NCBI GenBank assembly: GCA_005239175.1 | Contig: ML241294.1 | Coordinates: 507,275-571,274, forward strand | Direction: 5' to 3' | Length of the DNA stretch: 64,000 nt | Source of the DNA: a halophilic archaeon SHRA6 | GTDB taxonomy: Archaea > Halobacteriota > Halobacteria > Halobacteriales > Haloferacaceae | Shown: piece by piece, positions 13,877-61,982 of the stretch | Position numbering within the stretch: position 1 is the first letter of the stretch | Layout of the letters: the number at the start of each line of letters is the position of its first letter | Notes under the pieces: generated by a model | Databases searched by the model: none | What the model was told of the DNA's origin: nothing | Seen by the model: the letters and a program-made list of their open reading frames with translations, nothing else | Made by a program: the position numbers and the translations under genes

Positions 13877-13950
13877 GGGTTTGTGGTCTAGTCTGGTTAT
13901 GACACCTCCTTGACATGGAGGAGGCCGGCAGTTCAAATCTGCCCAAACCC
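13877..13950 (+). tRNA. tRNA-Val (GAC anticodon)
   Basis: Acceptor stem GGGTTTG pairs with CAAACCC; the anticodon arm CCTCC-TTGACAT-GGAGG gives anticodon GAC (Val); the T arm is GGCAG-TTCAAAT-CTGCC. The total is 74 nt without encoded CCA. No intron is seen. Its 3' half is repeated downstream (see repeat entry). Confidence 0.95.
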
Positions 13951-14160
13951 ACTCTCTGAATTCTCCAACGACGAGTGATGCGAAGTTGCTTGCAACCTCG
14001 AAAGCGATCGGCGAAGCTGCGAGCGAAGCGAGGAGTCCGTGAAATTGAGATGGGTGCTGGCAGATTTGAACCAGGGAGCGAACACAGTGAGCGACTGTGG
14101 TTCAAAATCTACTCAAACCCAGCTCAAAATCTGCCCAACCCCACTCTCTGATTTCTCATC
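13951..14160 (+). repeat. tRNA-Val 3'-end-derived repeats downstream of the tRNA
   Basis: The T-arm/3' end of tRNA-Val recurs at 14099-14121 and again at 14123-14157; the latter also repeats the flanking ACTCTCTGA..TTCTC that follows the true tRNA (13950-13966). An opposite-strand T-arm-like stretch at 14060-14072 and a perfect hairpin CACAGT-GAGCG-ACTGTG (14083-14099) lie between. The rest, to the kinase start at 14251, contains no recognisable gene. It could be scars of integration at the tRNA or a tRNA-associated repeat family. Confidence 0.8.
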
Positions 14161-61489: not shown

Positions 61490-61616
61490 TTATCGGTTCA
61501 CCTGAGTATCATCTAATAATTACTCTCTCAGGTATTAGGCATTGCTACGCGATTACACGTCGATTCTATGAATATCGATGTTTGAATCATACGTCTGTTG
61601 ATACGAATAAAGGATT
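61490..61616. other. Intergenic, AT-richer, before tRNA-derived repeats
   Basis: Contains the likely promoter of the minus-strand wHTH gene; no gene is visible. Confidence 0.45.
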
Positions 61617-61897
61617 CGAGGGATGGGATTCGAACCACGATCGCTCGCTACGCTCGCTCCCTGATTCAAATCTATCCTGTTCGACACACAGTGCTCGCTG
61701 GCGCTCGCACACAAGACGAGAGGGATAGAATTCGAACCACGATCGCTAATTCGAGCCATGATCGCTAATTCAAATCTATCCTGACTGACGCGCGATGCGA
61801 GGGATGGGATTCGAACCACGGTCGCTCGCTACGCTCGCTCCCTGATTCGAACCCATCCTGATCGATTCGCGGTGCTCGCTAGCGCTCGCACACGCGA
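61617..61897 (-). repeat. Tandem tRNA-Leu 3'-end-derived repeats downstream of tRNA-Leu
   Basis: Copies of the tRNA-Leu T-arm/acceptor end (plus strand: CGAGGGATGGGATTCGAACC) start at 61617, 61717 (diverged) and 61798; the true tRNA end starts at 61900. Steps are 100, 81 and 102 bp. Two of the units carry a GTCGCTCGCTACGCTCGCTC stretch and a second GATTCGAACC/GATTCAAATC, giving two T-arm-like motifs each. The same layout exists beside tRNA-Val. No protein is encoded. Confidence 0.85.
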
Positions 61898-61982
61898 TGC
61901 GAGGGATGGGATTCGAACCCATGGACCCCTACGGGAGCGGGTCTTAAGCCCGCCGCTTTTGGCCTAGCTCAGCCACCCTCGC
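61898..61982 (-). tRNA. tRNA-Leu (TAA anticodon)
   Basis: Minus strand, acceptor GCGAGGG (61976-61982) pairs with CCCTCGC (61899-61905), discriminator A at 61898; anticodon loop CTTAAGA gives TAA; the long variable arm (CTCCCGTAGGGGT) and T arm GGGTTCGAATCCC confirm class II tRNA-Leu. Length 85 nt, no intron or CCA. Confidence 0.95.

Follow-up and report, generated by a model that had tools for sequence, protein, structure and literature searches.

Behind a tRNA-Val gene of a haloarchaeon the end of the gene is repeated, which raises the question of whether this repeat belongs to a family that copies the end of the local tRNA, and what kind of element such a family would be. The window, the whole stretch of DNA analysed here, comprises 64,000 nucleotides (G000:C2:507275-571274) within a 3.36-Mb genome. 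The source of the copied end is the tRNA-Val(GAC) gene at 13877..13952 on the plus strand (ARAGORN; Rfam tRNA, 65.6 bits), and direct and inverted repeats define a copied source tract that runs from G53TTC of the T-loop through the 3' end and 14 nt into the flank (13931..13965, plus strand). In agreement with a preliminary description of this DNA, the tRNA 3' end and its flank recur downstream, 13935-13965 being found again, 94% identical over 31 nt, at 14127-14157. This direct repeat makes up the second 3'-end copy of tRNA-Val, 3' flank included (14122..14157, plus strand), which is missing in the congener G001. The additional, shorter copy noted in that description, 20 nt at 14102-14121, lies in a first, diverged copy of the same end (14100..14121, plus strand, direct repeat). 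The end of tRNA-Val scored 18 downstream of its own gene, compared to a maximum of 14 among the ends of the other 43 tRNAs.

Between the gene and these copies, a GA-rich stretch read from the sequence as trailer or first part of the unit (13952..14050, plus strand) is almost identical in G001; we dropped it as a candidate hairpin because its fold is not significant (z = +1.0). Further downstream, the inverted T-arm GGCAGATTTGAAC (14059..14071, plus strand) complements the local T-loop and the 3' strand of the T-stem with locus-specific pairing, and belongs to an inverted repeat (13931-13951 / 14051-14071) with 86% identity over 21 nt. It is joined to the class A hairpin core CAGGGAGCGAACACAGTGAGCGACTGTG (14072..14099, plus strand), identified by pattern and model matches and by folding, which has tandem G.A pairs and a bulged G. 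The Val hairpin folds with z = -3.8 as RNA and -2.5 as DNA. At this locus the tRNA alone reached its Rfam gathering score, the remaining weak matches falling far below theirs. Across the whole window, tandem-G.A hairpins numbered 6 and 7 per strand compared to 3.8 in shuffles, and we therefore make no strong claim for them window-wide.

A corresponding arrangement stands behind tRNA-Leu(TAA) (61898..61982, minus strand; ARAGORN), whose copied source tract, taken from the sequence, runs from the T-loop to the 3' end (61898..61918, minus strand). The array, likewise on the minus strand, consists of two clear units and one degenerate one in the layout found behind tRNA-Val. Unit 1 contains a class A hairpin that includes the T-arm part of the copied end (61803..61857; supported by its fold and by a covariance model score of 74.7 bits, for a sequence that is itself a member of the model's input) and an exact copy of the tRNA 3' end (61796..61816; 22/22 identity). 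Unit 2 is a degenerate hairpin (61723..61780; 27.4 bits, E = 1.8e-4). In unit 3, a class A hairpin (61622..61676; 68.8 bits) is accompanied by a tRNA 3'-end copy at 61615..61635, and the flank past this copy is common to G001. The array includes a direct repeat of 126 nt with 87% identity. The Leu unit folds with z = -3.9. The layout common to the two loci, as first described, holds in that the cores are similar (GGGAGCGAACACAGTGAGCGAC and GGGAGCGAGCGTAGCGAGCGAC) and their arrangement is the same. Its purely antisense character does not hold: an antisense T-arm is combined with sense end copies, and the units lie downstream on the tRNA's own strand, the description having read the reverse strand.

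Copies of tRNA ends across haloarchaeal genomes

For each tRNA predicted by ARAGORN, we compared the last ~26 nt with 700 nt of flank, at a cut-off score of at least 16. Downstream and on the same strand, 21 of the 44 tRNAs of this genome had a copy of their own end, compared to 2.5% (range over the comparisons 2.1-2.5%) when the ends of other tRNAs were used as control. Upstream, the count was 1 of 44, and this case was the tandem tRNA-Asp pair. Downstream own-end copies were also found for 20 of 43 tRNAs in G001 and, in other haloarchaeal families, for 16 of 26 (G028), 11 of 24 (G034) and 3 of 22 (G039). The earlier proposal, in which a family of repeats takes its copies from the end of the local tRNA, was thus borne out genome-wide and in these relatives. 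Two non-halophilic relatives in the phylum gave 0 of 21 (G254) and 1 of 24 (G255). The single case in the latter (L216), at tRNA-Ala(CGC), is a larger tandem duplication with flank included.

Within this genome, seven of nine core copies at no more than 2 mismatches adjoin tRNA genes, and tRNA 3' regions hold 14 of 15 covariance model matches. At G000:C4:57062-57101 (L012, L070) a class A core with decayed arms stands alone, no tRNA having been found nearby, and a similar GA-rich core occurs in a different palindrome (CCTCCGGCC...GGCCGGAGG) away from tRNA at G000:C3:606114-606135 (L016). A strict core pattern searched in 40 relatives matched 8 of the 40 genomes and yielded 24 cores, four of them in G000. 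Each of these has a tRNA on its own strand 21-305 nt upstream, apart from the one at L087 (G022, tRNA-Gly(TCC)), where the core is inverted and lies between two arms of T-loop sequence, as though these had recombined with each other. Among named genera, the core occurs for example in Halalkalirubrum, Halorarius, Halomarina, Salinigranum, Halegenticoccus, Halogranum, Halomicrococcus and Halobellus.

The covariance model of the hairpin (R1, 55 positions) matched in 178 of 194 haloarchaeal genomes, representing 63 of 64 genera, with E-values that are favourable by construction for sequences within the model. None of 82 non-haloarchaeal genomes of the phylum sample gave a match. The internal GTCGCTC...CTCCCTG part singled out in the preliminary description thus does have counterparts elsewhere, its core being conserved in these 178 genomes and in many named genera. 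Among the best 30 model loci, 25 were placed downstream of a tRNA by script; for four further ones (L253, L263, L264, L273), which the orientation rule of the script misjudged, the tRNA likewise shares the minus strand with the unit at a distance of about 45-110 nt, and one (L279) has no ARAGORN tRNA. At L293 (G192:C3:195000-199500), an array of the tRNA-Val type occurs without a nearby ARAGORN tRNA, which may have been lost or decayed. Family f17 holds most of the haloarchaeal genomes without a model match and has few matches otherwise.

Unit anatomy and array dynamics

A unit begins with a trailer, often with a tandem-G.A hairpin, followed by an arm that can pair with the local T-loop and T-stem over ~11 nt, a core with a variable tip, which belongs to class A, B or C, and the tRNA-end copy. 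This copy starts at G53TTC and reaches the 3' end of the tRNA, where a T-rich terminator-like flank is often attached; the repeated part is mostly the T-loop onward only. Units stand behind the tRNA in its orientation, single or in tandem, and the spacer is 52-244 bp (median 93). Terminator-like T-runs follow 61% of tRNAs, 49% of first copies and 8% of random sites. The class A core is YCAGGGAGC-tip-GCGACCGTG; class B includes AGTCGCAGC...CGTCTC; class C is short and in reverse orientation, with its boundary at the T-stem. The several core classes, and the occurrence of units in dynamic arrays, go beyond the preliminary description. In the tRNA-Leu(CAA) array (L066, G000:C2:148236-154236) we observed a degenerate second whole tRNA-Leu with a GA-rich insert in the variable arm, and a similar arrangement is present in G011 (L083).

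That copying is local, as had been suggested, is supported by the inverted arm, which follows the local tRNA over about 11 nt. In 81 distinct units, complementarity of the arm to the unit's own copy, compared to the expectation for other tRNAs, was 0.95/0.59, 0.91/0.69, 0.88/0.58, 0.70/0.44 and 0.58/0.23 at T-arm positions; because arm placement used positions 1-11 of the unit's own copy, the own values are biased upward, and the contrast counts as evidence of inexact size. From about position 12 onward, complementarity was at background level in these units. The arm thus complements the T-loop and T-stem only, a further point beyond the preliminary description, and an antisense copy of the entire tRNA 3' end was rejected, as pairing past the T-stem is background and the duplex energy of the acceptor part gave z = -0.6. 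Single units (Leu, Lys) are exceptions that do pair in the acceptor part. A retroelement primer-binding site was also rejected from reading the sequence, because the arm lacks the complement of CCA and pairing stops at the T-stem.

The class A hairpin was 92.5% paired in 18 units, with a covariation score of 0.256 compared to 0.138 in shuffles, and its tip pair 24-30, which is non-tRNA sequence, was AU, GC and CG in 9, 7 and 2 of the 18 and never unpaired; these counts can be inflated by related rows.

Alignment of G000 with G001, a comparison of two species in which gains are not separable from losses, showed that at Arg-CCT, Lys-TTT, Ser-TGA and Gln-TTG the whole units that differ adjoin the tRNA. 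Leu-TAA has three units in G000 and one in G001, and the distal flank is the same in both. The core class is swapped at Leu-GAG and Lys-TTT while both flanks stay nearly identical, and two units at Ser-TGA are present in different order. The tRNA-Arg(TCT) of G001 has T at position 71, the same as an array copy in G000, and then carries the unit that in G000 comes after that T71 copy. Behind a tRNA-Lys we found four identical 111-bp units (L285), behind a tRNA-Ser the array A-B-C-B-C (L297), and behind a tRNA-Leu the array A-B-A-B' (L288). Over 27 arrays, with copies below 15/22 left out, identity to the tRNA averaged 21.3/22 in the first copy and 19.4 in the last (p = 0.0013).

Possible origins of the arrays

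We consider it reasonably probable that the units form recombining, non-coding arrays of tRNA 3'-end cassettes, a haloarchaeal repeat family that is itself probably selfish or passive. We infer that the units would multiply and reshuffle through recombination at G^TTCRA, the T-arm sequence, and at its inverted counterpart. Exchange at the T-arm would rebuild a complete tRNA 3' end with its terminator, so the process would be near-neutral to the host and tolerated. The copy adjoining the tRNA, as the one from which the working tRNA end comes, would stay intact, and distal copies would decay. The hairpin may be kept because it helps the unit spread or promotes exchange, rather than by host need. 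The activity could come from a recombinase that acts on the strand in its folded form, or from general recombination between short repeats combined with template switching; both fit, and they are not separated, since conversion limited by T-arm homology would yield the same boundaries. That expectation also counts against cassettes as such, as does the fact that the hairpin is conserved class-wide and keeps one orientation, which could reflect host function.

If the cassette arrays are real, about half of the tRNA genes in G000 and in several other haloarchaea head small arrays that grow, shrink and reshuffle between sister species and can replace the tRNA end itself. The evolution of tRNA genes would then have a source that has gone unrecognised, one that might also explain why recombination targets T-arms and tRNA ends. 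At minimum, the units are a class-wide repeat family. A stronger form, which we regard as tentative and somewhat doubtful, is a widespread integron-like system in which a recombinase acting on folded T-arm hairpins builds and shuffles the non-coding arrays, each insertion rebuilding the tRNA end and terminator. Five tyrosine-recombinase genes were found in G000, none of which adjoins any of the 44 tRNAs. The arrays would also offer a clean test case for hairpin-recognising recombination in archaea outside viruses.

The identical tandem units, and the end copies kept identical to the tRNA, would also follow if ordinary homologous or microhomology recombination between the repeated ends had copied, converted and deleted an ancestral partial tRNA duplication, while correction templated by the hairpin kept the arms complementary; no dedicated element would then be involved. 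Deletions between short direct repeats are documented in a haloarchaeon (PMC3119063). Such passive duplication, however, leaves unexplained why one core stands behind unrelated tRNAs in nearly all haloarchaeal genomes, why a matched inverted arm is present, and why adjacent units differ in core class, and we judge it fairly unlikely. A host role for the hairpin as RNA, in transcription termination or 3' processing of the tRNA or in control by competing for the T-arm strand, would account for the fixed orientation, the nearby tRNA, the RNA fold (z about -3.8), the covarying tip and the class-wide spread. About half of the tRNAs in the same genome, however, have no unit, presence and core class vary between congeners, and a T-rich terminator-like sequence precedes the hairpin; we think such a role unlikely.

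Another candidate reading is that the units are att sites left behind by viruses or plasmids that use tRNA 3' ends for integration. A review of archaeal integrases and the tRNAs they target (PMC8371274) and a report on Haloquadratum (PMC3119063) describe integrases that prefer tRNA 3' ends, with partial duplication of the tRNA; the latter covers provirus tRNA att duplications together with repeat-mediated deletions. Known cases, however, span many kilobases and carry an integrase, whereas the spacers here are 52-244 bp (median 93) with no integrase near. At the sensitivity used, no match was found in plasmids, phages or viral contigs, and a phage search with the initiator-tRNA end for a provirus attP gave unrelated matches only. 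An inverted arm with a conserved hairpin is also unexpected for an att site. With no integrase nearby and no carrier match, we rejected att remnants as the main reading and consider them very improbable. Similarity by chance through the universal T-arm consensus might be suspected because the T-loop GTTCRA is common to nearly all tRNAs in this genome. It is refuted, and its probability is negligible, since own-end matches are clearly above what other tRNA ends or the upstream flanks give, and since the pairing is T-stem-specific and the core is conserved.

Comparison with known systems

We found no account of such arrays in the open-access literature, subscription journals lying outside the search, and none of the known kinds compared here accommodates them, so the arrays appear new. 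Like tRNA-derived SINEs, they are repeats with tRNA sequence, but they are not dispersed, and contain the end of the local tRNA only, downstream of that tRNA only. CRISPR arrays and casposon target-site duplications have a similar repeat-spacer layout, and casposons may use tRNA 3' ends; here, however, the repeat is the host tRNA end, and the spacers are a few hairpin classes that may recur. REP/BIME palindromes are also short, conserved, imperfect hairpins in intergenic DNA. Their dispersal was not seen here, where units are anchored at tRNA 3' ends with arms matching the adjoining tRNA. If ordinary recombination suffices, the arrays would be better classed as a variant of palindromic repeats.

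The att duplications of proviruses and plasmids likewise repeat the tRNA 3' end downstream, but the arrays have no cargo or integrase, a spacing of 52-244 bp, many tRNAs per genome, and an inverted arm with a conserved hairpin. In integron arrays, each unit ends in an attC hairpin, imperfect and with a bulged base and a variable tip, and the junction is at G/TT. The arrays described here share exchangeable units behind a fixed anchor with differences adjoining that anchor, a folded hairpin site with unpaired bases and a variable tip, and a junction at G/TT, a resemblance without sequence homology to attC. They differ in their non-coding units, many anchors and absence of a linked integrase, and in that each unit carries a copy of the local tRNA end.
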